A stretch of 30,895 nucleotides of DNA from a virus. Below, piece after piece: positions 7,008 through 30,895 of the stretch. The stretch is from positions 1 through 30,895 of IMG/VR virus record IMGVR_UViG_3300026097_000772. One strand, 5' to 3'. The notes under the pieces are model-generated. The model was not told the origin of the DNA, made no database searches, and was given only the letters and a program-made list of their open reading frames with translations. The translations under genes and the position numbers were made by a program. The first letter of the stretch is position 1. Every line of letters begins with the position of its first letter.

Positions 7008-7009
7008 GG

Positions 7010-7017: not shown

Positions 7018-7033
7018 CAGTATAATATACTGT
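7017..7033. repeat. Perfect inverted repeat at the expected late start site
   Basis: ACAGTATA (7017-7024) and TATACTGT (7026-7033) are exact reverse complements around a single A. The repeat overlaps the last base of the late-promoter octamer and would cover the start of transcription. It could be an operator or a 5' structure. The CAGGAG ribosome site at 7034-7039 directly follows. Confidence 0.55.
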
Positions 7034-7047
7034 CAGGAGTTATCAAT

Positions 7048-12885: not shown

Positions 12886-12932
12886 ATATGTACTTAACTG
12901 TTATCATATGTATTCTTTGTAATACTGATGTT

Positions 12933-12940
12933 GATAAATA
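12933..12940 (+). promoter_or_regulatory. Late-promoter octamer five bases before an ATG
   Basis: GATAAATA matches the T4 late consensus TATAAATA at seven of eight positions. It is followed by TCTTT and the ATG at 12946. T4 late promoters start transcription about six bases after the octamer, which would be the A of this ATG. The start codon at 12946 was chosen partly for this reason, over an ATG at 12928. Confidence 0.55.
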
Positions 12941-12945
12941 TCTTT

Positions 12946-13755
12946 ATGATAAAAGGTATCGGCGGTAAGCCTTACATAAACTTAGACCAATATTTGGATA
13001 TAGATGGATTTCAAAAATTGCATCCAGAAATCTGCAAAGGATTTGCACTGGCTAGAGAATATGCCAAAGAAGGAACTTGGATGACTCCCGGATTTAACTT
13101 TGACGATATGAGTTATATTGTTAATTGGAAACCTATATATAAGGCATTTGCAGAATTCCAAGAGTTACCAGACGACAACCCTATTAAAGTTCACGGAATG
13201 GAAATATTTCCCAAAGATTTTAAGGACTATCGTCAAAGAAATATGTTTACAAGATACCTGAAAGGTGCATTAGGAGCAAACGATCCTTACATTTATTATT
13301 TCCTCTGGGAAGAAGGAAGCTGGGACGAACGTAATGCTGAAAGAGCTCCAACTGAAGAACAACAATATTTTCCAGGAGTGGTTCGCTGGGTGGAAAATCT
13401 CATTGATGAAAGTATTATTGATCGGATTGGGCGTGTTATATTCTTCCATTGTGATCATAACGGACATGCATTCGAGCACAGGGACCTAGACGGCAGACAT
13501 GGCGACGACCAAGGTTATAGTCCGCACAATAATGAGTTTATACATATACGCTACCGTACAAAAAGAGGGTTTTATATTTGGGATCCAGAAGAAGAAAACA
13601 AATACTACATTAACAGTAATGCTGCTTTTTGGAATGATCAAGATTGGCACGGAGGCGAAGGATCTAAAGAACAAGAATACGGTTTAAGAATAGATTGTAC
13701 CTTTACTCCAGAGTTTAGAAAAACTTTAGGTATAGATCATTTAGACAGTTACTAA
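12946..13755 (+). CDS. Fe(II)/2OG oxygenase-like protein
   Basis: A 269-residue protein. The C-terminal half has the jelly-roll oxygenase signature: H178-x-D180 (FEHRDLD), H235 (DWHGG) and R248 (YGLRID), in the order expected of Asp/Asn-hydroxylase-like enzymes. The N-terminal 110 residues are a mixed domain with a GGKPYIN start. An ATG at 12928 would add six residues that read into the promoter octamer, so I prefer 12946. Its stop overlaps the ATG of the following twitch radical SAM gene (TAATG), so the two are very probably coupled. This is the only block with an oxygenase directly upstream of a radical SAM gene. Substrate unknown. Confidence 0.78.
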   Translation: MIKGIGGKPYINLDQYLDIDGFQKLHPEICKGFALAREYAKEGTWMTPGFNFDDMSYIVNWKPIYKAFAEFQELPDDNPIKVHGMEIFPKDFKDYRQRNMFTRYLKGALGANDPYIYYFLWEEGSWDERNAERAPTEEQQYFPGVVRWVENLIDESIIDRIGRVIFFHCDHNGHAFEHRDLDGRHGDDQGYSPHNNEFIHIRYRTKRGFYIWDPEEENKYYINSNAAFWNDQDWHGGEGSKEQEYGLRIDCTFTPEFRKTLGIDHLDSY

Positions 13756-15014
13756 TGAAATATTCAAAGGACACAATCTGTCCATATCCTTTTAACTATA
13801 TTAGCACAACTAACAGCGGCACATTTCGTACCTGTTGCGAAAGCTTAGGTATCGGAGTTTCGGCAGAAGATTATAATGCAGACGAAGTTTGGAATGGAGA
13901 TTTTTACAAAGGATTACGTAAAGATCTTATTAACGGAATACAACACCCTAACTGTGCAAGATGCTGGAAAAATGAGCAACAAGGTCTTATTTCTACAAGA
14001 CAAAAAGAAGTACTAAGCTACGACGAAGACTATCTTATTTCTCTGATAGACAAAACAGACGAAGACGGTTATTTAGATTATACTCCAGAAACATTTGAGT
14101 TTAAGATAGGTAATCTATGTAATCTCAAATGCATTATGTGTACGCAGATGGAAAGTTCCCAACACGAAGCGGAACTAGTATTTTTTAGACAAAAACAAGT
14201 AGACCTTCCACAGACTCTAAACTACATAGAGGAACACGTACGAGATAAAGATCAGATTTATCGTTATCAAAAATCTCAACAGAAAAAAATGTTAGATAGA
14301 TTACTAACTATAATGCCCAATCTTAAACTTCTTAAGATAGTAGGCGGGGAACCTTTTATAAATCCGCTGACCAATGACATATTAGATCTTGCAATAGAAC
14401 ACAATCATCATAAAACAATATCTTTAGAGATTATATCCAACCTCTATCAAACAGATTTTAAATATATACAAAAGGCTAAACAGTTCAAAAATTTTAGACT
14501 TTTATGTAGTATTGATCATATAGAACAAGAAAAATTCAACTTTATAAGATTCCCCTGTAAATATACCGAAGTAGAAAATAATTTTTTCAAACTATTACAC
14601 GATACAGAAATAGATTTAGAAATATCAGCTACATTTAACATTTTTAATATTTTTGACATGAAGGAAATTCTACAACAATTTGAGTTTTGGTCTAAACAGA
14701 GAGAAAAAGAACTTCCTGTTAGAATAAATTATGTAGACGAACCAAGATATTTTTCGTTTCAATACCTTTCACCGGAGCTAAGACAACAAGTAGAGATATT
14801 AGTAGAAAGGGTAGTTTTGGAGTTTGAATCTAGTAAGCTTTTTGCAGAAAACAATCAGTTATATGATTATCTTAAAAGCACAAAGAACTTTATAAAACAC
14901 CCTCCTGAGGATTTTAAAGAAGTTGTAGAAGAAAGATCAAGAGTGTTAAAACTTTATGATAATACTCGCGGTACAGACTATAAATCTTTATTTTTACATT
15001 TAAACACGCTCTAG
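13755..15014 (+). CDS. Twitch-domain radical SAM enzyme
   Basis: A 419-residue protein with an N-terminal twitch-like cysteine region (C9; C27-C28; C67 and C70 in HPNCARC) placed before the radical SAM core. The core has CNLKCIMC (C122, C126, C129), which holds the 4Fe-4S cluster that cleaves S-adenosylmethionine, and GGEP at 197-200, which contacts the SAM amino group. Long helical and charged segments follow to the C-terminus (KFNFIRFPCKY, then YDYLKSTKNFIKHPP). This arrangement matches the N-terminal-twitch radical SAM family. The reaction is unknown. It is coupled to the oxygenase upstream by TAATG and its end overlaps the convergent SDR gene by 15 bases. The C-terminal third is A+T-rich and Lys-rich. 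Confidence 0.9.
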   Translation: MKYSKDTICPYPFNYISTTNSGTFRTCCESLGIGVSAEDYNADEVWNGDFYKGLRKDLINGIQHPNCARCWKNEQQGLISTRQKEVLSYDEDYLISLIDKTDEDGYLDYTPETFEFKIGNLCNLKCIMCTQMESSQHEAELVFFRQKQVDLPQTLNYIEEHVRDKDQIYRYQKSQQKKMLDRLLTIMPNLKLLKIVGGEPFINPLTNDILDLAIEHNHHKTISLEIISNLYQTDFKYIQKAKQFKNFRLLCSIDHIEQEKFNFIRFPCKYTEVENNFFKLLHDTEIDLEISATFNIFNIFDMKEILQQFEFWSKQREKELPVRINYVDEPRYFSFQYLSPELRQQVEILVERVVLEFESSKLFAENNQLYDYLKSTKNFIKHPPEDFKEVVEERSRVLKLYDNTRGTDYKSLFLHLNTL

Positions 15015-15518
15015 TCCGGGCACTCCGCCATTGGTAATTTCGTAAACCTTTGGCAAAAATGCCCGTCTAGTAATAATATCGTTAACCGCATAGATTATTT
15101 GATCTGCTTCAACTTCGGGAATATTGTTAGAACCTTGGCCAAACTTTGAAACGTTGATTATCGCACTGTTCTTTATTGAAGAATGCACATATTCTAAAAA
15201 AAGCTTATGAGCAATATATTCATGAGTGCCATAATATTTCATTTGATTCCAGGAAAACTTTGTTATTAAACTGCCAAAACTTATATTGATTTTTGCCTTA
15301 CTTCTTTCCAATAAGAAACTTTGGACAAATCCAAGATGAGCAATATTCAAAAAAACATCTGCAGAATTTGTTAATTGAACTAACCTATCCTGTTGCTCTT
15401 CTTTATATAAATCCCAGCCATATAATCTGCTTATAGGAGTTACATTATAAATAACTTTATAATGATCGTATAACATTTTGCCTATAGGACTAGTAGCTCC
15501 AGTTAAAACTATATTCAT
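15000..15518 (-). CDS. Short SDR-type NAD(P)-binding oxidoreductase/epimerase-like
   Basis: A 172-residue protein with the glycine-rich nucleotide motif at the N-terminus (VLTGATSPIGKML), a later SFGSL strand where SDR enzymes have the catalytic Ser, and YIAHK matching the YxxxK pair. It is shorter than most SDRs (about 240-330), so substrate-binding parts may be reduced. The ATG at 15518 shares one base with the stop of the oxygenase-like gene upstream (TAATG), so I prefer it to a TTG four codons earlier. It closes a minus-strand block and overlaps the end of the opposing radical SAM gene. Sugar-nucleotide modification is possible. Confidence 0.75.
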   Translation of the reverse strand: MNIVLTGATSPIGKMLYDHYKVIYNVTPISRLYGWDLYKEEQQDRLVQLTNSADVFLNIAHLGFVQSFLLERSKAKINISFGSLITKFSWNQMKYYGTHEYIAHKLFLEYVHSSIKNSAIINVSKFGQGSNNIPEVEADQIIYAVNDIITRRAFLPKVYEITNGGVPGLERV

Positions 15519-16102
15519 TATATTCCCCAAACATTAAACAAAAATTTTGTTGATAGACCGGCATTTGACCCTGCATGCCAACTGGATCGTTCTGGCCATT
15601 TATATATTGCACCTTTATATTCATTGTAAAAGCAATGATCATCTACTACAAAAAAATGCCCGGGCTGAGGATCTGTAATATGACAATGAAATCTTTGAAC
15701 AGTTTTTGTTTCGCCTATAGTCCGATATTCGTCGGTGATATCCCAATGCCAAGGCGCCATATGACCAGGTTTAATGCTGCTGATCCAACAGAAATAAGAC
15801 TCCTCTAGTCCAACATATTTACAGAATTGGGTTAAAACCGTCATTTCAAAATCTTTACCCGGAAAATACATTCCCCAGCCCATGCTTCCGCCTTCTGACA
15901 ATAGGCAGTGTCCGGCGGACCTTATCGCAGAGGCAACATTATATGCTCCTTCTACATTAGCTGTGTTTACATCATGTGTAGGACCAACATAAGACGGCTC
16001 TGTATTTGTAATCTGTTGGACTACTTTATCCCAATCTATAATTTCGGAACAATTACCAATATAATCAGCCACAAATAAAATTTTCCGGCCAATTGCCAAC
16101 AT
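15518..16102 (-). CDS. Fe(II)/2OG oxygenase-like protein, short
   Basis: A 194-residue protein. The C-terminal half carries PWHWD (H119 and D121) and SSWHAGSN (H176), which together would make the iron triad of a cupin oxygenase. The usual 2-oxoglutarate Arg position is Lys (K186), a change that some oxygenases tolerate. RFHCHITDPQPGHFFVVDDH between them fits the jelly roll. I use the ATG at 16102. A TTG at 16117 would be an alternative. Either overlaps the kinase-like gene, by 38 or 53 bases. It is third in a four-gene block headed by an Asp/Asn hydroxylase. Activity is plausible but not shown. Confidence 0.7.
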   Translation of the reverse strand: MLAIGRKILFVADYIGNCSEIIDWDKVVQQITNTEPSYVGPTHDVNTANVEGAYNVASAIRSAGHCLLSEGGSMGWGMYFPGKDFEMTVLTQFCKYVGLEESYFCWISSIKPGHMAPWHWDITDEYRTIGETKTVQRFHCHITDPQPGHFFVVDDHCFYNEYKGAIYKWPERSSWHAGSNAGLSTKFLFNVWGI

Positions 16103-16622
16103 TTTTTTGGATGGCAATATTATACGATTTAACGATATCCAAATAATTTCCTACAAAAGGAAATCTTTCTTTATCGTGAATAGTAGATTCAATATCTGCT
16201 TTAAGTATTTTTTCTTCGCCGTGAGCAATTGCATAATTGTCTATAAGAAAAAAATCTTCATTTTTATAGAAAAATGTGTGAGGATAAAAATTAAGTTTGT
16301 AAATTCCATTATCTTCTAAATCTTTTTTAATTTCTAAAATTTTTTGTTTATAGTTTTTTGGCAATCTGTTAAAATGTATCATATGATTAAGATTGTCTTC
16401 ATATGCTAAAGAAACTAATCGTTGTTCTTCGTCCACTTCAGTAATTTGCGGAGCATAGGGTTTATTTTTCAACATTTCTATACCCAAAAGCTCACGCCGA
16501 AACCAATATTCAGATTTAAAATACATTGTATAAATGGTACTATCATAATATGCATCGTATACATCATTAGCATTTGCATAACGCCCTTCTGTGTCATATT
16601 TGAAAAACTTTTCTTTATTCAT
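16065..16622 (-). CDS. Kinase-fold-like protein (paralogue of 10330-11031)
   Basis: A 185-residue protein with the same order of motifs as the protein at 10330-11031: a Lys in a strand (K36, YTMYFKS), a helix Glu (FRRELLGIE, 41-49), a strand pair (RLVSLAYED), then IYKLNFYPHTFFY and FFLIDNYAI. Here an Asp is kept where kinases have DFG (D128), but the catalytic-loop Asp is Asn (N111) or missing. It is shorter, starting eight bases inside the Asp/Asn hydroxylase gene. The two kinase-like genes each follow a hydroxylase in their block, so the pairing is repeated. Fold assignment is by eye and should be tested by structure prediction. Confidence 0.5.
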   Translation of the reverse strand: MNKEKFFKYDTEGRYANANDVYDAYYDSTIYTMYFKSEYWFRRELLGIEMLKNKPYAPQITEVDEEQRLVSLAYEDNLNHMIHFNRLPKNYKQKILEIKKDLEDNGIYKLNFYPHTFFYKNEDFFLIDNYAIAHGEEKILKADIESTIHDKERFPFVGNYLDIVKSYNIAIQKNVGNWPENFICG

Positions 16623-17298
16623 ATGTTACCACCATGTTTTCTAAGTTAAGCGTCTTAAAATTTCCAAGTAGACTTTCGCACAACTTAAACGAAGCAGTGC
16701 TTCCATCAAATTTGAAATTTGAAATTTTTCCTGCTTTGTTTGCTGAATTCAAGAATGGACTTATATTCTTATCAAAAATATATCTTCCATTTACAACCTG
16801 AGTGGTTATAGATACAAAAACGGAAGCTGTGTTGCTACTCTTTAATAACTCGCGCACTACTAGCTGCATTCTTGCATGATCTCCAAAATTTACAGCAGTA
16901 TGTACAACTCCGGCATCCATATACCACCAACTTGCATCCTTTACCAATTCATACATGTTGTGTAAATTTAAATCTATTAAAAAACACTGCTCACCTGATA
17001 AGTTCATATGCCAGCGGTTGTCAATATCACTATGTGCCATATAACAGTCGCCGGGTTGCATTATAATAATGCGTGCTTCACCTTTTCTACCTTCTAAACT
17101 ATTGTATAATTTTTCAAGTGGAGTATCCTTGTATTCTCTTTTTAGGTTCCACTTGTCATAGAAGAAATCTCCACTAGGCTCATTTAGAATCATTTTTATT
17201 TTATCGTCATAGTTAATGTATGGATACTGTGTTAAAATATATTTGTAACAATCTTGAATATTTTTGTTATTTACTGAACAGGAAGTCTTTGTTAGCAT
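16615..17298 (-). CDS. Aspartyl/asparaginyl beta-hydroxylase-like oxygenase
   Basis: A 227-residue protein with H89-x-D91 (GDCYMAHSD), H133 (GVVHTAVNFGD) and R143 (ARMQLV), the iron triad and 2-oxoglutarate Arg expected of the Asp/Asn hydroxylase family. NRWHMNLSGEQCFL (94-107) fits the family, in which a conserved His and Arg follow the HxD. The C-terminal 70 residues are an extra beta-rich tail (SVFVSITTQVVNGRYIF). It is the first gene of a minus-strand block and has a late-type octamer four bases before its ATG. It overlaps the kinase-like gene by eight bases. It differs strongly from the other hydroxylase at 12229-12885, so the two are not a recent duplication. Confidence 0.85.
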   Translation of the reverse strand: MLTKTSCSVNNKNIQDCYKYILTQYPYINYDDKIKMILNEPSGDFFYDKWNLKREYKDTPLEKLYNSLEGRKGEARIIIMQPGDCYMAHSDIDNRWHMNLSGEQCFLIDLNLHNMYELVKDASWWYMDAGVVHTAVNFGDHARMQLVVRELLKSSNTASVFVSITTQVVNGRYIFDKNISPFLNSANKAGKISNFKFDGSTASFKLCESLLGNFKTLNLENMVVTYE

Positions 17299-17302
17299 AT
17301 AC

Positions 17303-17310
17303 TATTTATC
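17303..17310 (-). promoter_or_regulatory. Late-promoter octamer four bases before a minus-strand ATG
   Basis: On the minus strand GATAAATA reads towards the hydroxylase gene at 17298 and is followed by GTAT and ATG. It has seven of eight matches to TATAAATA. Together with the octamer at 17339-17346 on the other strand it forms a divergent promoter pair inside a 53-base gap. Confidence 0.55.
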
Positions 17311-17338
17311 AGTTCGTTAACAGACAAAAAATTGTATT

Positions 17339-17346
17339 GGTAAATA
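17339..17346 (+). promoter_or_regulatory. Late-promoter octamer five bases before the PP-loop ATG
   Basis: GGTAAATA (six of eight matches to TATAAATA) is followed by ATTTT and the ATG at 17352. The spacing is the same as at 12933-12940. It supports 17352 as the start, since an in-frame ATG at 17220 would place the octamer inside the gene and overlap the divergent hydroxylase. Confidence 0.5.
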
Positions 17347-17351
17347 ATTTT

Positions 17352-18071
17352 ATGCTGATAGACCAAGTCGAAATACCTATACATTCAAAATGGAGCCGTA
17401 TAGGAATCAGTGTAAGCGGCGGGGCCGATTCTGCATTACTAGCTTATTTAATATGCAGTAATACTGATGCTGATATAATTATAACAAATCAAATTAGATG
17501 TTGGAAGACCCGGCCGTGGCAAGAATATGTAGCGGACACTGTAATTAGTTATTTGCAATCTAAGTTCAGTAACATAAAATATGTAGAAAAAAATTTTATA
17601 CCTCCAGATCTAGAATGGGGTAGAAATGGTCCAAATATAATTGACGAGTACGGCAAATTGAAAAGCGGCAACCAAATAATTTTAAGAAGTTTTAACGAAT
17701 ATATCGGACACAAGTATAATCTTGATGCTTGGTTTGCGGCTATAAACAAAAATCCTAGTATAGATATTCCCGGTGCATTAGAAGATCGTAATCAAGGACA
17801 TGTTTCTCCCGCAATGACACACATGGGGATATCTGTCTATCATCCCTTTGTACACATAATGAAAGATTGGATCATTAAACAATATTATAATTTAAAAATT
17901 GAAGGGTTGTTGGCTTTAACTAGAAGTTGCGAAGGTGATAAGATAGATTATCCACATATATTCAACGACTTAGATTATACAACATATACACCTGGACAAA
18001 TTGTTCCTACTTGCGGAGAATGCTTCTGGTGCAAAGAAAGAGAGTGGGGCATTGAGCAAGCAACCAAATAG
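17352..18071 (+). CDS. QueC-like PP-loop ATP pyrophosphatase
   Basis: A 239-residue protein of the N-type ATP pyrophosphatase family. The PP-loop SGGADS is at 22-27 after a SRIGISV strand. The C-terminus has C193 and then CGECFWCKER (C221, C224, C227, R230), the spacing of the zinc site of QueC, which makes 7-cyano-7-deazaguanine (preQ0) from carboxydeazaguanine. Length (QueC is about 220-230) also fits. QueD and a clear QueE are not seen in the window, so the substrate could be the host's carboxydeazaguanine or something else. I leave the symbol empty for that reason. It heads a four-gene + block. The next gene starts 20 bases inside it. Confidence 0.78.
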   Translation: MLIDQVEIPIHSKWSRIGISVSGGADSALLAYLICSNTDADIIITNQIRCWKTRPWQEYVADTVISYLQSKFSNIKYVEKNFIPPDLEWGRNGPNIIDEYGKLKSGNQIILRSFNEYIGHKYNLDAWFAAINKNPSIDIPGALEDRNQGHVSPAMTHMGISVYHPFVHIMKDWIIKQYYNLKIEGLLALTRSCEGDKIDYPHIFNDLDYTTYTPGQIVPTCGECFWCKEREWGIEQATK

Positions 18072-19323
18072 TTGTACATTCTGTATGCATCCTTTTACTG
18101 GACTTGCTACACGTGAAGACGGCGCTATTAAAGTATGCTGTCGCAGTCAGCCCGTCGGCTGGATACAGAAAGAAAGTTTAGAAGAGGCATGGAATAATGA
18201 TGCCATGCGTGAAGTGCGTAGGCAGGTTTTAAACAATGAAAGACCCGATGTTTGTAAACCCTGCTTTGACCTTGAAGATCAGGGTGTCGAGAGCTTACGA
18301 CAGCGTCACACAGCGGGCGTTATACCCGAAGCACGTAGCAACTTATATCCCGACGCATTAGATGCGCTAGAAGACGATTATACTATGCCTTTTGAATTTC
18401 CCACAATGGAAATCAAACTTAACAATCTTTGCAATCTAAAATGTCGCATGTGTAATCCACTTGACAGTACTAGTTGGAAGGATTGGGGCGCAATACGAAG
18501 CCATTATGAGAAAGAAAATAACTACCTTATTCCCACAGTGGACGCATTAGTTGACACTCCTGGACAGTATATAGGTCCTTTTGACAACAGTGACAATTGG
18601 TGGAACAGTTTTGAAAAACTCCTACCTCACTTTAGGCGTGTTGAATTTGCAGGCGGTGAGCCCCTGATGGATCCTTACCACTATAAGATTCTTGACAAAT
18701 TAGCACAGTATGGTGAGAACATAGAACTGAAATATGCAACTAATGGAACCACATTAGGAATTAAAGGCGGACGTACAATACACGACTACTGGCCCAAGTT
18801 TAAAAGCATTGCTGTAAACGTAAGCATAGACGGCATACACAATGTTTATGAATATATTAGAGGCAATGGCAAGTTTTCGGAAATAGAAGAAAATATAAAG
18901 GTATTTAAATCGTTTCCTAATGTTAGTAGAGTGGTAGGTGCATTTACAGTACAAGCAAATAATATCTTACAGATTGCAGAAGTAATAGATTACTTCATAA
19001 ACAAAATGGGCATAGTGTTCTATTCTCATCGCGTTAATTATCCAAGAGCATTGAGTGCGCAAACTTTACCTCTGCCGTTAAAGAAAAGAGTTATCGCAGA
19101 ACTAGAAGATATGAAAACAACAGTTTTAGAATATCCAATGGTAAAAGAACATAAACTTCTAGAACAAGTGACCCTGCAACAAATACAAGATAACATAAAT
19201 TTTTTACAAGCAAACGATCTTAGCGAGTTTTGGCAAGATTGCATAGACTTCAATTTAAGCTTAGATGCCACTAGGAATCAAGAGTTCTTTTCAGTTAATC
19301 CCGAGTTTAAACGTTATGCTTAA
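18052..19323 (+). CDS. Twitch-domain radical SAM enzyme, TTG start
   Basis: I choose a TTG at 18052, preceded by GAGAGTGGGG, because the only nearby ATG (18085) would cut away the first two cysteines of the twitch region. The resulting 423-residue protein has C8 and C11, C29-C30 and C68/C71 (VCKPC) before the core, then CNLKCRMC (C117, C121, C124) and GGEP (191-194). It is close in layout to the proteins at 13755 and 21997. The end (WQDCIDFNLSLDATRNQEF) is helical and carries one more Cys. It overlaps the PP-loop gene by 20 bases and the next gene by eight, so translation is probably coupled. The substrate is unknown. Confidence 0.9.
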   Translation: MSKQPNSCTFCMHPFTGLATREDGAIKVCCRSQPVGWIQKESLEEAWNNDAMREVRRQVLNNERPDVCKPCFDLEDQGVESLRQRHTAGVIPEARSNLYPDALDALEDDYTMPFEFPTMEIKLNNLCNLKCRMCNPLDSTSWKDWGAIRSHYEKENNYLIPTVDALVDTPGQYIGPFDNSDNWWNSFEKLLPHFRRVEFAGGEPLMDPYHYKILDKLAQYGENIELKYATNGTTLGIKGGRTIHDYWPKFKSIAVNVSIDGIHNVYEYIRGNGKFSEIEENIKVFKSFPNVSRVVGAFTVQANNILQIAEVIDYFINKMGIVFYSHRVNYPRALSAQTLPLPLKKRVIAELEDMKTTVLEYPMVKEHKLLEQVTLQQIQDNINFLQANDLSEFWQDCIDFNLSLDATRNQEFFSVNPEFKRYA

Positions 19324-20113
19324 AATAACAATCACTAATGGTAAGGAAGACTATAATTTATACTTTAATGTTCGTGATACGGATATTGCAAAAAAATGGC
19401 TAAATGAAGTACAAAAGAACTACTGTTTAGACGCTATCGATAGATTCACTAATTGGGGATATAAGAATATTATAAATGAGTTGAATGAAAAAATAGATCA
19501 TATTAACTCCTATGAAAAACTTATTAACTACAAAGTTGACAAAAATACCAAACAGAAGGATTTGAATTATCTACATAAATTTTTTGAAGATTTAAAAGGG
19601 GGAGAAGGCAATTCAGAATGGTATAACAATGCGCCCGATGATATTCAGCATTCAATAAGTAAATTGAATATTTTAATTCACGAATTAGAATCTCAGATTC
19701 GAAAAAGCGATCATCCTACTATTGTTGTAACCTACAAAAATCCTCCACTGCTGAAATTGACAGATAAAGATGTAAAACATTTTACCTTTAAATGGTCTCA
19801 TGGAACAATCTACATAAATTACCCTCATGTAGGGAAACCAATATTAGATGTGTTTAAAGATAGAGACTCTATTGCAGAAGTTATTCTTCCTCAAAGCCAT
19901 TACAGTGCAGATTTTATGATAAAGTTTGGTCCTTCTGTAAGTACACTACACTTTTTTGCTAGAAAAATTCTTATAAAGTTTTGGTTATGTTTTCAAAAGT
20001 TTAATTTTGAAAATTTGAATTTAGGAATGATTCCTGTTGCAGATATTAACCACAATGTAGAGTTAGAATATCTTTATAAGTTTGATAGGATAAAGGATGT
20101 ATGCGTAATTTAG
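19316..20113 (+). CDS. Phage protein of unknown function, 265 aa
   Basis: The ATG at 19316 was chosen because it overlaps the stop of the twitch radical SAM gene by eight bases; an ATG 17 codons earlier would overlap 59 bases and read as out-of-frame sequence. The protein opens with a small beta segment (MLKITITNGKEDYNLYFNVRDTDIAKKWLNEV), then a charged helical region (about 50-130), and a second beta region (HPTIVVTYKNPPLLKL). It has three cysteines that are not grouped. The coding DNA is among the most A+T-rich in the window. It sits between two radical SAM genes in the same block, so it may supply a scaffold or substrate-binding part. I do not recognise the family. Confidence 0.8.
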   Translation: MLKITITNGKEDYNLYFNVRDTDIAKKWLNEVQKNYCLDAIDRFTNWGYKNIINELNEKIDHINSYEKLINYKVDKNTKQKDLNYLHKFFEDLKGGEGNSEWYNNAPDDIQHSISKLNILIHELESQIRKSDHPTIVVTYKNPPLLKLTDKDVKHFTFKWSHGTIYINYPHVGKPILDVFKDRDSIAEVILPQSHYSADFMIKFGPSVSTLHFFARKILIKFWLCFQKFNFENLNLGMIPVADINHNVELEYLYKFDRIKDVCVI

Positions 20114-23406: not shown

Positions 23407-24001
23407 TCTGTTTTCCTATAATCATATAACGATCGTATTTGGGCAATTCTAATTTATCTGAGAATATAATATCTAAATTTGCCTTCTGTTCGAAATTTTC
23501 TAAACTGTCTGCACAATTTATGTGTTCATCTAAATCAAAATAATTGTTGCTCTGTAAAACGTACAAAGAACTGTTAGGCTGAATATACTGCCAATAATAG
23601 TAATTCAGTTGCGGAATATGTTCACAGCTTGTATTTATAATCACATCTGCTTGTTCTACATGTTTACACATGTCTGCGGTTACTGCACGAAATCTGCCCT
23701 CTATTTCGTACCTCTTATTGACGGTGTATGCTGTTTCTTCACAAGCAGGATCTATGTCCACGCTGGTTATTCTATCCACTTGTATATCGCTGTTAAAGAT
23801 AAGACTGGCTAATACACCGTTCCAGCCACCGTGAATAACGATGTGTTCCCATTTTTTGTCTTGAAATTTCTGTAGATTTTCAATCAACCAAATCTTACTA
23901 TTAACTTGCCCTTTCCAAAAACTTTCCAGTGTTCGGTACCGATCGTCACTGTTGCGGATTGCATCCATCCAGAACAACACATCTTGTATATCAACTTTCA
24001 T
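23399..24001 (-). CDS. Class I SAM-dependent methyltransferase-like
   Basis: A 200-residue Rossmann-fold protein. Motif I reads VIHGGWNGVLASL (HGGWNG at 57-62) and the acidic motif II ends ITSVDIDP (D82/D84), together the SAM-binding loop and ribose contact. DVIINTSCEHIPQ is in the place of the catalytic strand (motif IV). It has no extra target-recognition domain, so it is not a typical DNA methylase. It overlaps the genes on both sides (8 and 11 bases) within a radical SAM operon, which suggests that it modifies the same product. The substrate is unknown. Confidence 0.82.
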   Translation of the reverse strand: MKVDIQDVLFWMDAIRNSDDRYRTLESFWKGQVNSKIWLIENLQKFQDKKWEHIVIHGGWNGVLASLIFNSDIQVDRITSVDIDPACEETAYTVNKRYEIEGRFRAVTADMCKHVEQADVIINTSCEHIPQLNYYYWQYIQPNSSLYVLQSNNYFDLDEHINCADSLENFEQKANLDIIFSDKLELPKYDRYMIIGKQNV

Positions 24002-24995
24002 ATTTTACCTTTGGCAATTTACTATCGGCAGAGCTTACACAGGACTTTGTTATACATTTACGAGGCTTGTCAAATATCTTAAATCCATCTTCAAGTGTTC
24101 CAATGGTCTCGTCATCGCAACTGTAACTTCTCTTTACTTCTGTGTCTCTTATTACTATCCCTTGGTATCCTGCGTTACAAGTCCATCCTTCGAACTTATT
24201 AAAATCAAATGCGTTAAACCTTTCTGCTTGATCAAGATAATACTTATTATGTTTATCATCTTCCAGTTCGACCTGATATAAAGGAATGAGTTTTTTATAC
24301 TCATCGGGGATTATTTGAGGGAATCCTGTTTGCATAAGGTCACGCTGTTCTTGTGTATAGCCGTCCACAATAAAACTCGCTGTAGGGTCGCTTTGAGGCT
24401 TTAACGTGACGTTTATACCTCTATCTGAAAGTCTATGGCATCTATTGTAATACTCGTCAAACATACCAGGAACCATAACTTGGTTTACGGTTACAAACAC
24501 TCCTGCATCTGCTAGCATAAGACATTTATCACCAAACTCTGTTTCATCTGCGTATTCGGCATGGAAACTGGCAGTTATACTTCTACGTTGTAGACTTTGT
24601 GTAGTGGTCAACCATCTATCCCACCACTTAGGTCCCGGCGAAATATTTGATGTCATATGTATGCTTTGATATTCTGGGACAGTGTCATTTGCATAATATT
24701 CGATAACATCAAGAAAGCCTTTAAGTGCCGTCGGTTCACCGCCACTGAAGCTAAAATGGAAGTCTGTAAAGTCATTAGCTCTTGCCTGTGCCTTGATACT
24801 ATCAATGGTGTTTAAGTATAATTCTAGCGGTTTCTTATCTGGGACACTAGATCTTGCGTATGGCCAGCAGTATGAGCAGTTATAATTACAATATCTTGTG
24901 GTTATCCAGGAGACAGTGAAAAGACGATTATCTAGAAGGGTTTTCTGACCAAATCGAACTATATTGTCCCACGGAATGCTTTGAAAGTCTGTCAT
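23991..24995 (-). CDS. Radical SAM enzyme (GWxCNxG C-terminal subgroup)
   Basis: A 334-residue enzyme with CNYNCSYC (C36, C40, C43) and GGEP at 85-88 (FSGGEP). The core is followed by ITASFHAEYADETEF and VTVNQVMVPGMFDEYYNRCH. The C-terminal part has GWTCNAGYQGIVIRDTEV, then SCDDE and KCITKSCVSS, as in the proteins at 20101 and 20978 although the last cysteines differ. It starts by ATGA overlap with the SPASM-like gene upstream and overlaps the methyltransferase by 11 bases. It is probably a third member of one subgroup. The substrate is unknown. Confidence 0.9.
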   Translation of the reverse strand: MTDFQSIPWDNIVRFGQKTLLDNRLFTVSWITTRYCNYNCSYCWPYARSSVPDKKPLELYLNTIDSIKAQARANDFTDFHFSFSGGEPTALKGFLDVIEYYANDTVPEYQSIHMTSNISPGPKWWDRWLTTTQSLQRRSITASFHAEYADETEFGDKCLMLADAGVFVTVNQVMVPGMFDEYYNRCHRLSDRGINVTLKPQSDPTASFIVDGYTQEQRDLMQTGFPQIIPDEYKKLIPLYQVELEDDKHNKYYLDQAERFNAFDFNKFEGWTCNAGYQGIVIRDTEVKRSYSCDDETIGTLEDGFKIFDKPRKCITKSCVSSADSKLPKVKYES

Positions 24996-26041
24996 TTTCT
25001 TGTATCGTATAACGCCTTAGAACACACTTTTACGCATGTCATACATTTGTTTTGTCCTTCCCAGTAAGAATTTAATGTTTCAAACAACATTAGATTAGGA
25101 ATGTTTAAAACTCCGTCTTGACATTTTGGTATACCTACAGCATTCATTATGTCTTTGGAATTTTGTACACTGAGGTTTCTAAGGACATGTATAGGAAGTT
25201 GTTCTTCAACTGGTGTTTCTAAATAATCTCCACCTATCCAGCAACAAGGAAATACACTTCCATAAGGATCCACATATATTCCTTGATCAGTTTCGCACAA
25301 TGGCGTTATTTCTGCATTTTCTAACACAGTGTCCCGTACTTTTTTGTCTACTAAAACGTCTAGCCTGCTGTTAGGAGTCTTTTTGTATTCCTGCCGCTGT
25401 GCAGGTTCTAAGTCATATAAATGAATACCGTTTTCATTTTGTACAGGAAATTTTTCCATTTCATAGAAACGAGTTGTGCTTACAAAATTAACCTGCTCTA
25501 CTCCTAAATCTAACAGGAACTTTTCTAGTTCTTCTGTGTCATGTTCGTTGTGTGCGAACACAAGACTATCTACACGGGCCGTTCCGCCTGCATCTATAAA
25601 TGCTGTTAAGTTCTGTATTACTTTGTCAAAATTAGTGTTGCGTCTATAAATTTCATGTTTTCCTTTAAAGCCGTCAACAGCAAACACCACCTGAACGTTT
25701 TGCTCAGCTAATTTTTTCCACCATTTTGTATCTCGCATGCCGCCGTTCGTATGTATAGCGAGTCTTACACCTGGGTTGCAGGATCTAACATAAGAGTAAA
25801 TTTCCAAACAGTCTTTTGCAAATGCAGGGTCACCGTAATTGCCACAACTATAGAAATTGTCTAATTGAGCTAAGAACTGAGGCGGAAACCAAGATTTAAA
25901 ATCGTTAATGCCGATATCGCCATTTTTAATAAACGGTCTGGTTGCGCCGCCATGATAATTTCTAGCACACATAGGACATTGTGCTTGACACTTATCAGTT
26001 AGTTCTATATGAACTGTTTTTATATTTTTAACAAGTTGCAT
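24992..26041 (-). CDS. Radical SAM/SPASM-like enzyme
   Basis: A 349-residue protein with CQAQCPMC (C18, C22, C25). The GGEP position reads CGNYGDP, a variant that keeps the Gly-Asp-Pro end. The C-terminal part has CETDQGIYVDPYGSVFPCCWIGG and later CMTCVKVC, a SPASM-type group of cysteines that would bind auxiliary Fe-S clusters. In this family the auxiliary clusters often bind a peptide or enzyme substrate. It overlaps the glycosyltransferase-like gene by 14 bases. The region between (ENAEITPLC) keeps spacing typical of SPASM. Family firm, reaction unknown. Confidence 0.9.
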   Translation of the reverse strand: MQLVKNIKTVHIELTDKCQAQCPMCARNYHGGATRPFIKNGDIGINDFKSWFPPQFLAQLDNFYSCGNYGDPAFAKDCLEIYSYVRSCNPGVRLAIHTNGGMRDTKWWKKLAEQNVQVVFAVDGFKGKHEIYRRNTNFDKVIQNLTAFIDAGGTARVDSLVFAHNEHDTEELEKFLLDLGVEQVNFVSTTRFYEMEKFPVQNENGIHLYDLEPAQRQEYKKTPNSRLDVLVDKKVRDTVLENAEITPLCETDQGIYVDPYGSVFPCCWIGGDYLETPVEEQLPIHVLRNLSVQNSKDIMNAVGIPKCQDGVLNIPNLMLFETLNSYWEGQNKCMTCVKVCSKALYDTRK

Positions 26042-26699: not shown

Positions 26700-26703
26700 A
26701 CAA

Positions 26704-27678
26704 TTAATGTCCTTCCATATAATCTTTAAGAGTAAACTGTGTACCGAGCATATAGTCTGTACTAGCAGCCGGGTCATTACTCCATACAAGCACTTCGGGA
26801 TCTTCGTATAAGAAATCACAATTCTTGCAGTATTCGATGCTGTCAAAGTTTTTCTCGGCATGGGCTTTACGAAGCTGGCGGTATTCTGTTCCATTCCATA
26901 TTTCTTCGATGGTTTGTGTTTCCGCATGTCCGAGCACACTTAGACTTTCGTTCGGTGGACCCATTGTTTGGCAACAAGGAGTGACTGCTCCTTTAAGTCC
27001 TCCGTTGCCACCGCTTCTAATAGTAATCTCCGGAGCAAAAGGTCTACCGCATGTTCTTCGCTGACTAGGATCTCTAACGTATAACGGCTGGTAGTTGCCG
27101 CTCCAGTTATGCATTTTCCAAATATAACCGAGCACTCCGGTCGGTCCTATAAAGTTATTTCGATACTGATCAACTTCATATTCTACTTGTGTGTTATCTA
27201 ATATCAAATGGTAACTTGATAAAGTGCATTTTGCATCTTGTTGTTTGATATATTCTTTGGCCTTTGTTACATTTGTTTTTAATAGATCAAAGTTATCAAC
27301 ATCCATCCATTCTTTATACTTTTCTCTGTCGTAACCTATACAACTAAACCGAGCAAAGGTAAGGCCGGCGTCAACACAATCTTGCATAAAGTGTCCACTA
27401 AAGAAACTGCCGTTGGTGTACATAAAACTAGGAAGTCCTCTCTTCGTGCACTCTGCAATGTATAAAGGCAAGTCTTTAGCCATTGTGGGTTCGCCCGAAC
27501 CTTCTAGATTAATTACAGGCTTACCTGGTAGTTGATCAAGAATGTTTACAAACATATCCAAAGGCATCTTACGTGTCCACTCTTTGCCACGACCTGTAGT
27601 TTGAGGACACATTTGGCATGTATAGTTGCATCCGCCAAATACTTCTATGACTGCTCGTTCCAGTTTAGGCACCGACAT
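26704..27678 (-). CDS. Radical SAM/SPASM-like enzyme
   Basis: A 324-residue protein with CNYTCQMC (C17, C21, C24) and EGSGEPTM (GSGEP, 60-64) in the GGEP position. The C-terminal part has TCGRPF, then VTPCCQTMG and YCKNCDF, a SPASM-like cysteine group with CxxC. IEEIWNGTEYRQLRKAH before it is a helix commonly seen in SPASM proteins, where it precedes the last cysteines. It overlaps the unknown gene at 27665-28459 by 14 bases. It is similar in layout to the one at 24992-26041 but has different motif variants, so it may act on another substrate. The reaction is unknown. Confidence 0.9.
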   Translation of the reverse strand: MSVPKLERAVIEVFGGCNYTCQMCPQTTGRGKEWTRKMPLDMFVNILDQLPGKPVINLEGSGEPTMAKDLPLYIAECTKRGLPSFMYTNGSFFSGHFMQDCVDAGLTFARFSCIGYDREKYKEWMDVDNFDLLKTNVTKAKEYIKQQDAKCTLSSYHLILDNTQVEYEVDQYRNNFIGPTGVLGYIWKMHNWSGNYQPLYVRDPSQRRTCGRPFAPEITIRSGGNGGLKGAVTPCCQTMGPPNESLSVLGHAETQTIEEIWNGTEYRQLRKAHAEKNFDSIEYCKNCDFLYEDPEVLVWSNDPAASTDYMLGTQFTLKDYMEGH

Positions 27679-28459
27679 TTGTAATTTTTACTCCATGGTC
27701 GTTATAGTAATCATAATTCGGCAATAAAACTAACCCTTTTAGGATATTTTCAAAATCATCTGGGTTTTTTAAATTTAATTTTAATGTTTTGGATTTATTT
27801 TTGTTATTATTTTTTAAAACCCAATCGGGTACGTTTCCTTGCACATTAGTAGTTTGCCAAAAATCAATAATTCGCTTGGATTCTTTTCTTACACTGTTGG
27901 TAAGCCTTCCTTGGTCAAAATGTACATGGGGTATTAAGCTTCCCCACTCGGCACAAACTACCAAAAATATGCCGGTATTTGGAAAATATTCATTTAGTTC
28001 CTCTTCGCTAGAAAATGTTTTTTTAAATTGGCAAGATTTGCCTTTAGTATTGAAGGCTAGAGCGAGGATAGTATCAGGGCCAAAAAGTTTATAAACAATT
28101 TGTCTAGATCCGCCGGGATGGATCTCCCAAATCTGCTTAGGCGGATTATATATAGCACCAATAGGATTTTTAAATATATAATCAGCCTGTATATATTCAC
28201 GAGCAAGCCATACCAATTTTACATAATTTTCAATATTTGCTCTCCACTTTGTTGGGTCGTTATCCATAATATCTAAGTAATTAGGTAAATGCATACCTGT
28301 GGTGAAGAAATTTTCAACAGTTTTAGGCAAATAATCAAAAGATCTGTAGTTAAAATCATTCTTAGAAAATTCTGCTATACCTAAACTTTCAGTTGAATGC
28401 TTGTATGTGAAAAAAAGATTGCTGTGAGTTTCTATTTTAGGAAGAGTTTCGTATACCAT
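27665..28459 (-). CDS. Phage protein of unknown function, 264 aa
   Basis: The ATG at 28459 is favoured by GGAG at 28467-28470 on the minus strand, with good spacing. An alternative start at 28498 would overlap the SGNH gene by 62 bases. The protein has an aromatic N-terminal region (NLFFTYKHST, NYRSFDYLPKTVENFF), a conserved-looking IWEIHPGGSRQIVYKLF stretch, then VCAEWGSLIPHVHFDQG with several His and Asp residues, and a Lys/Asn-rich C-terminus. The HPGGSR segment might be a nucleotide- or phosphate-binding loop, but I cannot name a family. It is encoded between an SGNH hydrolase and a SPASM-like radical SAM. Confidence 0.78.
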   Translation of the reverse strand: MVYETLPKIETHSNLFFTYKHSTESLGIAEFSKNDFNYRSFDYLPKTVENFFTTGMHLPNYLDIMDNDPTKWRANIENYVKLVWLAREYIQADYIFKNPIGAIYNPPKQIWEIHPGGSRQIVYKLFGPDTILALAFNTKGKSCQFKKTFSSEEELNEYFPNTGIFLVVCAEWGSLIPHVHFDQGRLTNSVRKESKRIIDFWQTTNVQGNVPDWVLKNNNKNKSKTLKLNLKNPDDFENILKGLVLLPNYDYYNDHGVKITNVGA

Positions 28460-29279
28460 TAAATAGCTCCTTGTGTAATCTATTAGCAAAGTACTCATGA
28501 ACTTTTTCTACAAAGTGCCCACCAGGTAACCCATGATGTTTGATATTGTGATCAGAGAGTCTAAACTTAGGATTTATAATATTTCCACATAGATGAGTTA
28601 ATCCGTGTCTCTCATCGTTAGTATGATATGTACTTTGATCTTTAATTCCCCATGACCACAAACTACTGTCAAAAAACATCACAGGAATTTTATGAGCATC
28701 TAAGAATCCTTTTAATCCTTGTATGTGGCAATAGCTATGCCAGAATAGATCATAATAATCATAGTGAGTTAACACATATTTTCCAAATTGTGCCTTTTCT
28801 TTCCTTTGTTTTTCTAACCCATTAAAATGAATTGTTTCGTAATTATATTCATTTGACCAATCAGCATCTTGAGAAATAGGTGCTCCGAACCTCAATGGAT
28901 GAGTAATCATAATTAAACAAGCTAACTCAGTTGACGGTGTGCCTTTATTAAGCTCTCTTATAACTGTCATAAGAATTCTGTGACAAATATCCTGATTAGA
29001 TGCTCCAGGAGAGGCTGTATTCTCAACAGTAATTCCTATTTTTTTGGAAAGTATTGCTGGCCAAGCGCGGTTTTTTCTAATATCATCATACTTAAAACTA
29101 TCATCTCGAGAAAGTTTTTTTAACTTTTCCTTATATCTTTGCCAAGCATTTTTTCTTTCATTTTCGTTTGCTCCATCTTTTACTATTGCAGAATATCCCG
29201 GAATGTGCAAATCTCCGTCTAGTTCGTCGCCGGCTGTAAAGCTATCACCTCCTACTATAATTTTTTTAATTTGTTTCAT
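28437..29279 (-). CDS. SGNH/GDSL-type hydrolase
   Basis: A 280-residue protein with the GDSFTAG block at 11-17 (S13 as nucleophile), GASNQDI at 92-98 (block II Gly and block III-type Asn), and GLPGGHFVEKVHEYFA at 250-265 with H255 as the likely catalytic His. These make a credible SGNH esterase/lipase family assignment, although the usual DxxH near the end is altered. SGNH enzymes cleave or transfer acyl groups, often on sugars. A Lys/Arg-rich insert at 36-70 is unusual. It starts by ATGA overlap with the radical SAM gene upstream. An esterase with glycosyltransferase-like and GNAT-like genes points to a glycan or acylated product, which is inference. Confidence 0.8.
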   Translation of the reverse strand: MKQIKKIIVGGDSFTAGDELDGDLHIPGYSAIVKDGANENERKNAWQRYKEKLKKLSRDDSFKYDDIRKNRAWPAILSKKIGITVENTASPGASNQDICHRILMTVIRELNKGTPSTELACLIMITHPLRFGAPISQDADWSNEYNYETIHFNGLEKQRKEKAQFGKYVLTHYDYYDLFWHSYCHIQGLKGFLDAHKIPVMFFDSSLWSWGIKDQSTYHTNDERHGLTHLCGNIINPKFRLSDHNIKHHGLPGGHFVEKVHEYFANRLHKELFNGIRNSS

Positions 29280-30655
29280 ACTGTTCGGGCTATAACATTT
29301 TCATTTAATTCTTTGCAACTGTTATAAAATTCTGTGTATTCTGGAAAAGTTTCTAACAAGTTTGTATCTAACCTGCGATCATTTTCTGAAAAGAATTTGT
29401 AGAAATCTCTTCTTCCTTGCAATATCTTATCCTGGGAGATAGGATTTTGAAATGCGTAATCCCTTACTCTGCGCATTTTTTCTAATTCTACATCGGCAAA
29501 AAATTCTTTGTGATCGATTATGAACTGTAAATTGTTATCCATGTGTTCTTCTAAAAAATCTTGCGGTAAAATATTTAACATCCAATGAGGAGGTTCTTTT
29601 AGATACGGTATATCAATTTGCAGAAGCCGTTCCTTGCCTTGCTCTAGGAGTTCTTTCCGCCAGTGAATTACTCTATTCAAAAAATTTGTATATGTAGCAA
29701 CGCATAGCACATTAAAAGTACACATTATACCAACCTTGAATCCTCTATCTAATGCTTGCTTAAAATTCTTTTCCCAGTGGTCACATTGTAATCCAGTACG
29801 CATATACTCAGCCTGGGGGCCCCACCCTTCGATACTGGTAAACATACTGAAACTTTTAATCTTTTTTTGATCTAATAAACTTTCTACTCTATCATACATC
29901 TTACTGACTTTATTTTCAGTTACACCAAGGTTTGAATTTATACTTATTTCTAGCTGAGGGGCAGGCTCGTCTTCTAACAGATCAAAAAACTGCATTGCTC
30001 CTGGATTCATTAAAGGCTCTCCCCCTGTGATTCGTAAAGTCCATAAATCTTTACGCAAATCTGGCCACCACTTCCAGAAAGCTTCTATGTAAGGATTATC
30101 ATCTTTGGGCCCATAATACGTGCCGCTTTCTAAGAATTCAATGCCATATTGATTATAAGACAAGTCATAATTTCCATGCTTTTGAATTTCATCCATCCAT
30201 AGTGTACTAGCTTGGGGACAACAATACCCGCAACGATAATTACACCCGTTTCCAAAACTAATTTCTAAATATTTAGGATTTATATCCTTGTCCCAAGACA
30301 TTTTGCCTAGTTTTTCGATTTCATTAACTGCAAAATTACTCGAACTATGAATCATTCTATCTGATATATGTTCACCTTCTAAATCTTCAATATTCCAGCA
30401 ATAGTAACATTCGTCTGGCCGGCCGCCTTCCAACATTATTTTTCTTTGTTGTTTTTTCCATTCAGTATTATGAAGGGCACTTGGATTGGCCTTGACTTCG
30501 TGCACAGGAATATGATGGGGTCTAGGATGATAGCAACTGTGATTGTCACCAGTGTGCAGATATAGTGTTTCGTGTAACCACTTCATAGCACACATACCCG
30601 GGCCAATGTCGTTTAATCGATCTCTAGTTTTTTTTATATTATCTACATTCTGCAT
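29276..30655 (-). CDS. Twitch-domain radical SAM enzyme, 459 aa
   Basis: N-terminal cysteines are at C22 (GMCAMKW), C41 (HSCYHP), C83 and C86 (ECYYC). The middle one is a single Cys, not the CC pair of the other twitch proteins. The core has CNYRCGYC followed directly by another Cys (C138, C142, C145, C146) and GGEP at 211-214. The C-terminal 80 residues form a helical part ending FFSENDRRLDTNLLETFPEY, which is repeated in the partial gene at the window edge. It overlaps the SGNH gene by four bases and the partial gene by 17. Function unknown. Confidence 0.9.
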   Translation of the reverse strand: MQNVDNIKKTRDRLNDIGPGMCAMKWLHETLYLHTGDNHSCYHPRPHHIPVHEVKANPSALHNTEWKKQQRKIMLEGGRPDECYYCWNIEDLEGEHISDRMIHSSSNFAVNEIEKLGKMSWDKDINPKYLEISFGNGCNYRCGYCCPQASTLWMDEIQKHGNYDLSYNQYGIEFLESGTYYGPKDDNPYIEAFWKWWPDLRKDLWTLRITGGEPLMNPGAMQFFDLLEDEPAPQLEISINSNLGVTENKVSKMYDRVESLLDQKKIKSFSMFTSIEGWGPQAEYMRTGLQCDHWEKNFKQALDRGFKVGIMCTFNVLCVATYTNFLNRVIHWRKELLEQGKERLLQIDIPYLKEPPHWMLNILPQDFLEEHMDNNLQFIIDHKEFFADVELEKMRRVRDYAFQNPISQDKILQGRRDFYKFFSENDRRLDTNLLETFPEYTEFYNSCKELNENVIARTV

Positions 30656-30895
30656 TTAGATTCTCACACTCTATAATAAAATTTTTTAATTCAGGAAACA
30701 TTTTTCTAATATCAGTATTTCTACGACGATCGTGTTCTTTAAAGTATATATCGAAATTTTTCATTGCTATTGTTTTTTCCTCTTTATTCATAGGCGTCTT
30801 TGCCCAGTCATAAAGTCTTTGGACTTTGTCTATTTCAAAATCTTTAAACCCTTTATACCGACAGTGCGAAGTTTCTATATTCGCTTTCATAAATT
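30639..30895 (-). CDS. C-terminal part of a probable radical SAM gene (partial, window edge)
   Basis: An open frame enters from the right edge and runs to a stop at 30639. It codes for residues such as KVQRLYDWAKTP, then YFKEHDRRRNTDIRKMFPEL. These match the C-terminal end of the neighbour at 29276-30655 (KMRRVRDYAFQNP, then FFSENDRRLDTNLLETFPEY) in both parts. An ATG at 30890 would make an 83-residue free-standing gene, but the frame remains open through the last bases, and the similarity extends to both sides of that ATG. A longer upstream radical SAM gene cut by the window edge is therefore more likely. The next gene starts inside it by 17 bases. Confidence 0.65.
   Translation of the reverse strand, partial: FMKANIETSHCRYKGFKDFEIDKVQRLYDWAKTPMNKEEKTIAMKNFDIYFKEHDRRRNTDIRKMFPELKNFIIECENLNAECR

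Follow-up and report, generated by a model that had tools for sequence, protein, structure and literature searches.

The question raised by this locus is what a virus gains from carrying so many radical SAM genes. Catalysts of the radical SAM type are costly and sensitive to oxygen, and since at least ten of them are kept here in a fixed order and under purifying selection, the gain from their product ought to be large. The window, as we call the whole stretch analysed, is 30,895 nucleotides of viral DNA (positions 1 to 30,895 of IMG/VR record IMGVR_UViG_3300026097_000772), in which a sequence-only reading had counted nine complete genes with a CxxxCxxC motif and a tenth cut at the edge. The HMM search which that reading proposed recovers a radical SAM domain in nine of nine proteins, all above the Pfam Radical_SAM (PF04055) cut-off of 29.5 bits (30.9-48.3 bits; E-values of 4e-7 to 2e-12), and a six-frame search of the window independently returned the same nine genes. 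The tenth, a second F1-type N-twitch gene (CNLKCAYC) of which the window holds only the C-terminal end (30639..30893, minus strand), is complete at 50772-52193 (473 aa) in G001, a contig of 82 kb that overlaps the window with 100% identity across 30,555 bp. With all nine above curated cut-offs and with strong selection, a chance pile-up or artefact can be set aside, as can recent tandem duplication of one gene: the core families form separate clades, several of them common to bacteria (F5 and F7 trees).

Radical SAM layouts and the fixed core

The layouts distinguished from the sequence largely stand. The four genes credited with an N-terminal twitch region, at 13755..15014 (RS1, plus strand; CNLKCIMC), 18052..19323 (F11, plus; CNLKCRMC), 21997..23406 (F7, minus; CNIKCVMC) and 29276..30655 (F1, minus; CNYRCGYC), all match NCBIfam NF033640 (N_Twi_rSAM) over its full model length at 277-396 bits, F7 scoring 396, against a curated cut-off of 170 bits; to our knowledge, this family of twitch domain-containing radical SAM proteins has no assigned function. 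An alignment mixing the twitch subfamilies is too divergent to be used for scanning a collection. The three genes with a GWxCNxG tail, at 20101..20994 (F10, plus), 20978..22000 (F8, minus) and 23991..24995 (F5, minus; CNYNCSYC), have in common a Cys-rich C-terminal region that resembles an auxiliary-cluster domain; hhalign matches F5 to F10 from end to end (99.7%), and the CxxxCxxC motif, GGEP and tail cysteines are invariant in an alignment of 18 F10 sequences. As for the two genes called SPASM-like, the one at 26704..27678 (RS8, minus; CNYTCQMC) scores 46 bits for Radical_SAM and, above cut-off, 43.7 bits for SPASM, whereas the one at 24992..26041 (F4, minus; CQAQCPMC), which also has C-terminal Cys motifs, reaches 14.5 bits against a SPASM cut-off of 21.5. 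The Cys triad of the CxxxCxxC motif is invariant in the alignments of F4, F5, F7, F8 and F10.

Six of these families (F4, F5, F7, F8, F10 and F11) belong to one fixed core that recurs in divergent marine phage contigs, the same block being present in the 12 contigs compared. In window order, its first half consists of an oxygenase-like gene, a PP-loop ATPase, an N-twitch radical SAM gene and a GWxCN radical SAM gene, and the operon facing it of a GWxCN gene, an N-twitch gene, a methyltransferase, a further GWxCN gene, a SPASM-like gene and a GT2-type glycosyltransferase. F5 follows F4 in 76/77 F4-anchored loci, a glycosyltransferase (F76 or F3, a pair in most viruses) precedes F4 in 73/77, and F8 follows F7 in 62/78 loci, so that the neighbourhood is a shared one and not a scatter of single genes. 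All core gaps in the window are negative, as expected of the tight overlaps described earlier, and dN/dS (omega) is 0.04-0.24, indicating purifying selection. This recurrence and selection, together with a core subset in bacteria, bear out the earlier suggestion of a dedicated modification or biosynthesis island. Relatives of three core genes lie in 123, 125 and 593 IMG/VR stretches; the island is thus widespread in that collection, yet its core families were absent from the cultured phages searched, and the core is not described in the open-access literature searched (subscription papers and preprints lay outside that search).

The enzymes accompanying the core radical SAM proteins fared variously. 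The methyltransferase (F6, 23399..24001, minus) has a predicted class I SAM-dependent fold (AlphaFold pLDDT 88.9) of natural-product type, with a Foldseek match to DnrK at E 1.9e-11. The gene taken for a glycosyltransferase (F76, ~26028-26699, minus) encodes a protein whose predicted structure (pLDDT 91.4) matches the GT-A enzymes WrtF, RmlT and ArnC at fold level only (TM about 0.4). The window protein alone has no Pfam match; a bacterial F3-F76 fusion scores 29.8 bits for Glycos_transf_2 (cut-off 23.3) and a DxD motif is invariant in the family alignment, which points to F3/F76 as probable GT2 glycosyltransferases. The PP-loop assignment of F14 (17334..18071, plus, its start probably near 17334) holds in that SGGxDS and CxxCxxC are invariant in an alignment of 17, while its likeness to QueC stays below the model cut-off (17.5 bits against 22). 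F4 has as its best solved relative BlsE, a radical SAM enzyme with a sugar nucleoside as substrate, to which it aligns over about 260 residues (TIGR04466, 46.8 bits; equivalog cut-off 400). F6, F14 and F13, the last a virion gene family discussed below, gave nothing usable in a profile search of the PDB.

Around the core lie variable radical SAM cassettes, RS1 and RS8 (family F36) among them, and 39 long records carry 2-15 radical SAM genes each (median 9). Of the oxygenases, F16 (12229..12885, minus) is of the Asp/Asn beta-hydroxylase 2-oxoglutarate type (Pfam Asp_Arg_Hydrox, 58.7 bits; cut-off 22.6), and F15 (16615..17298, minus; 9/12 contigs), an Asp-hydroxylase-like neighbour of the core, falls just short at 20.7 bits. 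Several further resemblances are by eye: F12 (12928..13755, plus; 10/12 contigs, no Pfam match) has an oxygenase-like HxD...H pattern; F0 (15518..16117, minus) resembles 2-oxoglutarate oxygenases and has many paralogues (25 copies across 10 contigs); F2 (10330..11031, minus, with a paralogue at 16065..16622, minus) resembles small-molecule kinases and recurs as several paralogues per virus, with no Pfam or PHROG match; F21 (9783..10337, minus; 8/12 contigs) is GNAT-like, with weak similarity only to FeeM; F54 (11016..12269, minus; 4/12 contigs, no database match) joins a GT-A-like to a Rossmann-like part; and F53 (15000..15530, minus; no Pfam match) resembles short-chain dehydrogenases, its weak relatives adjoining bacterial F5/F6. 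The supposed SGNH hydrolase (F100, 28437..29279, minus) found no database support, its likeness being by eye only. Two genes have no assignment: F31 (19265..20113, plus; 6/12 contigs) and F101 (27665..28498, minus; no database match).

Virion neighbours and bacterial counterparts

Contigs that include a capsid gene come from jumbo phages related to Pseudomonas phage PA5oct, their major capsid protein being 67-70% identical to those of the PA5oct group, Vibrio phage 2.275.O and Phosso; PA5oct itself has no radical SAM gene. The island adjoins the tail-fibre/virion module, bounded by a fibre gene with an Mtd_N domain and by fibre and F13 virion genes. In the window, the left boundary is a 910-aa fibre/adhesin-type protein (7048..9780, plus; Mtd_N 43.3 bits, above the Pfam cut-off). 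F13 is a homologue of PA5oct gp360, which was detected by MS/MS.

Five core families (F3/F76, F4, F5, F6 and F7) are also clustered on Bdellovibrionota chromosomes, where they too are accompanied by glycosyltransferase genes. F5 occurs in 22/369 Bdellovibrionota genomes, mostly as a single copy, at 51-52% identity to the window protein. Phage and bacterial sequences split cleanly in the F5 and F7 trees (bootstrap 100 in each), and the module is therefore old; by the same split, the idea that the bacterial copies stem from a recent phage insertion is unsupported, and recent capture from bacteria by phages is unlikely. One genome, G223, holds F13, F30, two F9 genes and F3 together with radical SAM genes and F5, and its F5 groups with the bacteria, not the phages. 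As this is the only one of 369 genomes with F13, that protein is ruled out as a universal substrate in bacteria and cannot serve in general as carrier for the shared core. The Bdellovibrionota counterpart offers a route to cellular study of the pathway, and F5, highly conserved and usually single-copy, a simple marker for finding a tractable host.

What the pathway might make

We tentatively favour, at somewhat less than even confidence, a pathway of several enzymes by which a surface glycoconjugate is assembled and tailored. Its carrier would most likely be a virion protein of the tail-fibre region or, failing that, the infected cell's surface. The F3/F76 glycosyltransferases, probably with the F9 pair outside the window, would attach a sugar to this carrier; the six core radical SAM enzymes would remodel it by hydrogen abstraction (decarboxylation, epimerisation and dehydrogenation are examples), using the SAM cluster and, in most, Cys motifs that may hold additional Fe-S clusters; the methyltransferase, PP-loop ATPase and 2-oxoglutarate oxygenases would complete the product, and interchangeable radical SAM, oxygenase and kinase cassettes at the flanks might vary it between viruses. 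We infer this substrate, carrier, set of reactions and order of steps from the fixed core with its glycosyltransferase, the evidence on F3/F76, the likeness of F4 to BlsE, the glycosyltransferases of the bacterial module, the nearby virion genes, the G223 cluster and the purifying selection. Against it we count the fold-level nature of the F76 match, the assignment of F9 (by eye, with no database match), the rarity of F13 in bacteria, and the QueC-like ATPase, which would suit nucleic-acid or small-molecule chemistry equally well. More tentatively still, the island may represent an undescribed multi-radical-SAM pathway that jumbo phages and Bdellovibrionota have shared since ancient times. Its product would be a modified glycan or glycoprotein of new chemistry on surface structures of the virion or the predator, and its hallmark a permutable GWxCN auxiliary-cluster domain.

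It is somewhat unlikely that no sugar is involved and that the enzymes instead mature a protein, installing cross-links, epimers or methylations on the tail fibre or on F13. The nearest relatives by profile include SkfB and YydG, which mature peptides, radical SAM enzymes that act on peptides typically have N-twitch and SPASM-like domains, tail-fibre genes adjoin the island, and F13 carries a GYG motif that is invariant and has Q or E after it. However, glycosyltransferases are consistent members of the core, whose neighbours overlap in nearly every case and leave no space for a small precursor gene, and Pfam found no RiPP recognition element in the nine radical SAM proteins, a search blind to diverged ones. 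A RiPP cluster as such is ruled out by the missing short precursor and the overlapping junctions.

Remodelling of the host envelope, with an altered surface polysaccharide that blocks superinfection as proposed for pelagimyophage glycosyltransferases, would fit a region of host-recognition type (PMC7029224), the GT2-type genes and cassettes that vary much as serotypes do; we think it improbable, as the core is strongly conserved rather than variable and is kept on Bdellovibrionota chromosomes without a phage. Improbable, too, is a diffusible natural product or cofactor produced in infected cells or by Bdellovibrionota, such as a nucleoside- or aminoglycoside-like compound: the BlsE-like F4, the PP-loop ATPase, the F6 fold, the oxygenases and the kinase-like genes could all serve it, but the window shows no recognisable gene for a transporter, a carrier protein or resistance, and the neighbours are virion genes. 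Phage radical SAM enzymes are known to take part in the hypermodification of DNA bases, and the QueC-like motif of F14 would allow it to act with the radical SAM enzymes and methyltransferase on DNA or tRNA; this is very unlikely, given QueC and QueE matches that are weak or below cut-off and no 7-deazaguanine synthesis partner genes seen within the window. A prokaryotic viperin (NF038283, best score 52.8 bits against a cut-off of 180) and anti-phage defence (PADLOC on ten island proteins gave only generic pVip similarity and no system-specific match) are ruled out.

Comparison with known systems

Like RiPP clusters with several radical SAM/SPASM maturases, the island combines auxiliary-cluster domains with a methyltransferase in one operon, but it differs in having no precursor peptide or recognition element and in the glycosyltransferase of its core. 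Four window genes match the NF033640 family in full; what sets the island apart is the presence of several paralogous subfamilies in a fixed order with other enzymes. BlsE and other sugar-acting enzymes of nucleoside and aminoglycoside pathways can be aligned with F4, which stays far below the equivalog cut-off, and such pathways use one radical SAM enzyme whereas the island has six in its core.

The earlier view that phage radical SAM genes usually come in ones or twos does not always hold: radical SAM matches number 11 in Campylobacter phage CP21 (three of these contain in-frame stops), 6 in Vibrio phage K566 and 4 in Sinorhizobium phage Phosso, and five genes are described in phage CC_R7 (PMC12398825). 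In CP21, K566 and Phosso the genes are likewise several and partly clustered, those of CP21 and Phosso lying close to genes for fibres or large virion proteins, but they fall outside the core subfamilies, scoring at most 86 bits with models that give mostly hundreds for island and bacterial members. The hypervariable host recognition cluster of pelagimyophages (PMC7029224), defined by a position between VrlC and gp14 in a T4-like phage, resembles the island in lying beside tail fibres and in containing glycosyltransferases and radical SAM cassettes. There, however, the cassettes are reported as variable, whereas the island has an invariant core of six radical SAM families, in jumbo, PA5oct-related viruses wherever a capsid gene was found.

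Radical SAM genes of the window and their fixed core

All nine complete radical SAM genes claimed by the sequence-only reading encode proteins that score above the Pfam Radical_SAM cut-off, and an independent six-frame search arrived at the same nine places. Its three layouts stand as well. The four proteins assigned an N-terminal twitch region (13755, 18052 and, on the minus strand, 21997 and 29276) match NCBIfam NF033640 along the whole of the model at 277-396 bits, and the three said to carry a GWxCNxG tail (20101 and, on the minus strand, 20978 and 23991) do have a C-terminal GWxCN region in common. Of the pair called SPASM-like, 26704 (-) exceeds the SPASM cut-off but 24992 (-) falls below it. 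The tenth gene, cut at the window edge, is complete in G001, an 82,491-base contig whose end overlaps the window, itself an IMG/VR fragment of 30,895 bases, by 30,555 bases with zero mismatches, and there encodes 473 aa with the motif CNLKCAYC.

A shared neighbourhood in marine phage contigs was recovered as a single fixed core across the window and 11 other contigs, one of which (G001) is the same virus. In the window it runs from an oxygenase-like gene (F15, 16615, -) through a PP-loop ATPase (F14, 17334, +) to the radical SAM genes F11 (18052, +) and F10 (20101, +), which is faced by a minus-strand operon of F8 (20978), F7 (21997), the methyltransferase F6 (23399), F5 (23991), F4 (24992) and the glycosyltransferase F76 (26028), all radical SAM genes except F6 and F76. 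Some viruses have the order of F4, F5 and F6 swapped or an extra gene inserted, and some carry a cassette of variable content before F76. When F7, F4 or F5 served as bait to fetch 223 loci, F5 came next after F4 in 76 of 77, F76 or F3 (also a glycosyltransferase) lay ahead of F4 in 73 of 77, and F8 came next after F7 in 62 of 78; as baits are present by construction and long contigs were chosen, these are adjacency figures and not prevalences. The members do not belong to one species, since at 75% identity there are 13 representatives of F5, 18 of F7, 20 of F10, 39 of F4 and 41 of F8. Variable cassettes surround the core; 39 long records have 2-15 radical SAM matches apiece (median 9). The island is a conserved unit. 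Pairwise dN/dS of its core genes is 0.04-0.24, similar to the phage core genes F19 and F20, values that are rough because several of the pairs are almost saturated in dS.

G+C falls from 0.422 (positions 1-9780) to 0.355 in the island. Among cultured phages, the left-flank AAA ATPase has its closest relatives, at 51% identity, in Pseudomonas PA5oct-type jumbo phages. As no capsid gene was found in the G001 stretch, we infer the lineage from relatives: 5 of 12 related contigs tested have a Gp23-type capsid, among them a 357 kb record with a capsid protein that shares 67-70% identity with those of PA5oct-type phages, Vibrio phage 2.275.O and Sinorhizobium phage Phosso. Contig G003 (L238-L245; 155 kb) has 238 ORFs of at least 55 aa by the standard code, against ~142 in relatives of similar size, which may point to a non-standard code, to a chimeric contig or to a separate lineage.

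Enzymes and a possible substrate

The core holds six radical SAM enzymes. Two of them, F10 and F5, are homologues throughout their length (hhalign 99.7%), and their tail cysteines are invariant; at five loci (L289, L297, L298, L300 and L302) relatives of F10 carry the GWxCN region N-terminally, an apparent domain permutation. The structure predicted for F6 shows the fold of a class I methyltransferase (pLDDT 88.9; Foldseek 1.9e-11) and that for F76 a GT-A fold (pLDDT 91.4), with DxD invariant in the alignment; a bacterial F3-F76 fusion exceeds the Pfam GT2 cut-off. In F14 an SGGxDS motif is invariant and accompanied by a Cys triad.

The nearest solved relative of F4 is the sugar-nucleoside enzyme BlsE, and F7 and F10 are closest to the peptide enzymes SkfB and YydG, so that sugar and peptide cannot be told apart from sequence alone. 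A Pfam search of the nine radical SAM proteins found no recognition domain. No core junction in the window has a gap, and the gaps across contigs are almost all negative, which leaves essentially no place inside the core for a precursor peptide gene of its own. The favoured reading, held with somewhat less than even confidence, is that the island acts on a glycoconjugate. It draws on the glycosyltransferases, which never leave the core in phages and are often present in bacteria, and on the position of the phage island next to genes for virion fibres.

The core module in bacteria

F10 was used to scan 84,980 genomes of bacteria and archaea and gave seven loci, of which five lie in assemblies of Bdellovibrionales or Bacteriovoracaceae. 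F5, F4, F7, F6 and F3/F76 occur together in the fetched bacterial neighbourhoods, for example in the orders F5-F4-F7-F6 (G042), F6-F7-F4-F5 (G044) and F5-F4-F7-F3-F6 (G164). Of 369 Bdellovibrionota genomes, 22 match the F5 profile, with few exceptions in single copy (E ~1e-160). Judged by eye, the flanks look like chromosome (genes for EF-Tu and ribosomal proteins, pheT, trmD), although the sequences are metagenome assemblies. Four Bdellovibrionota genomes (G041, G045, G042 and G044) have 10 to 42 twitch-type radical SAM model matches each, far above what one pathway would lead one to expect.

Two bacterial copies share 51-52% identity with the F5 of the window. In a core-domain tree (139-column alignment) F4, F5, F7 and F10 each unite phage and bacterial members with support of 0.93-1.0, and F11 with 0.80; in fuller alignments phage F5 and phage F7 each stand apart from all bacterial copies (bootstrap 100). 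This separation speaks against recent transfer in either direction and marks the core module as an old pathway common to phages and bacteria.

At one Bdellovibrionota locus (L359, G223:C21, 10388-14799), F13 (a homologue of a phage virion protein, with a GYG motif), F30, two F9 genes, read as glycosyltransferases, and F3 adjoin F5 and several radical SAM genes. Outside phages, F13, F30 and F9 were seen only there, on an apparent chromosome, and its F5 groups with bacteria. A 108 kb contig of the Gammaproteobacteria MAG MED685 (L285, G040:C3), which could be viral or bacterial, has a nearly full core set and, by eye, sulfotransferase-like and SGNH-like genes; among 399 genomes sampled from its phylum, the F5 profile matches this assembly itself and no other.

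Virion genes beside the island and known phages

The right flank of G001 presents, in order, a 4769-aa protein, fibre-type proteins with PHROG tail and virion matches, two F13 genes, F30, two F9-type genes, one more gene, F3, two F1 (N-twitch) radical SAM genes and the rest of the window, in which a 910-aa Mtd_N fibre-type gene is the left limit of the island. The 4769-aa protein (G001:22909), very large and virion-type, lies upstream of the island and corresponds in position to PA5oct gp355.

Single parts of the island are of known kinds. Radical SAM cassettes have been noted within the host recognition cluster of pelagimyophages (PMC7029224), and five radical SAM proteins in a Campylobacter phage (PMC12398825); a jumbo phage of Burkholderia is reported with three, along with two 2OG oxygenases and one QueC-like protein (PMC11898562). 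The portions of these papers drawn on here do not describe a fixed core. In the open-access library searched, neither the conserved assembly nor its counterpart in bacteria seems to have been described. Campylobacter phage CP21 (HE815464.1) has eleven radical SAM matches, three broken by in-frame stops, which suggests decay or phase variation in its fibre region. Sinorhizobium phage Phosso has four matches near its 13.7 kb virion gene, which belong to other subfamilies than those of the island. PA5oct differs from G001 in that no island follows its virion run and a radical SAM gene is absent from the whole phage, but like the G001 flank it has a large virion protein, a tail fibre, a virion protein and the F13 homologue gp360, which has been detected by mass spectrometry.
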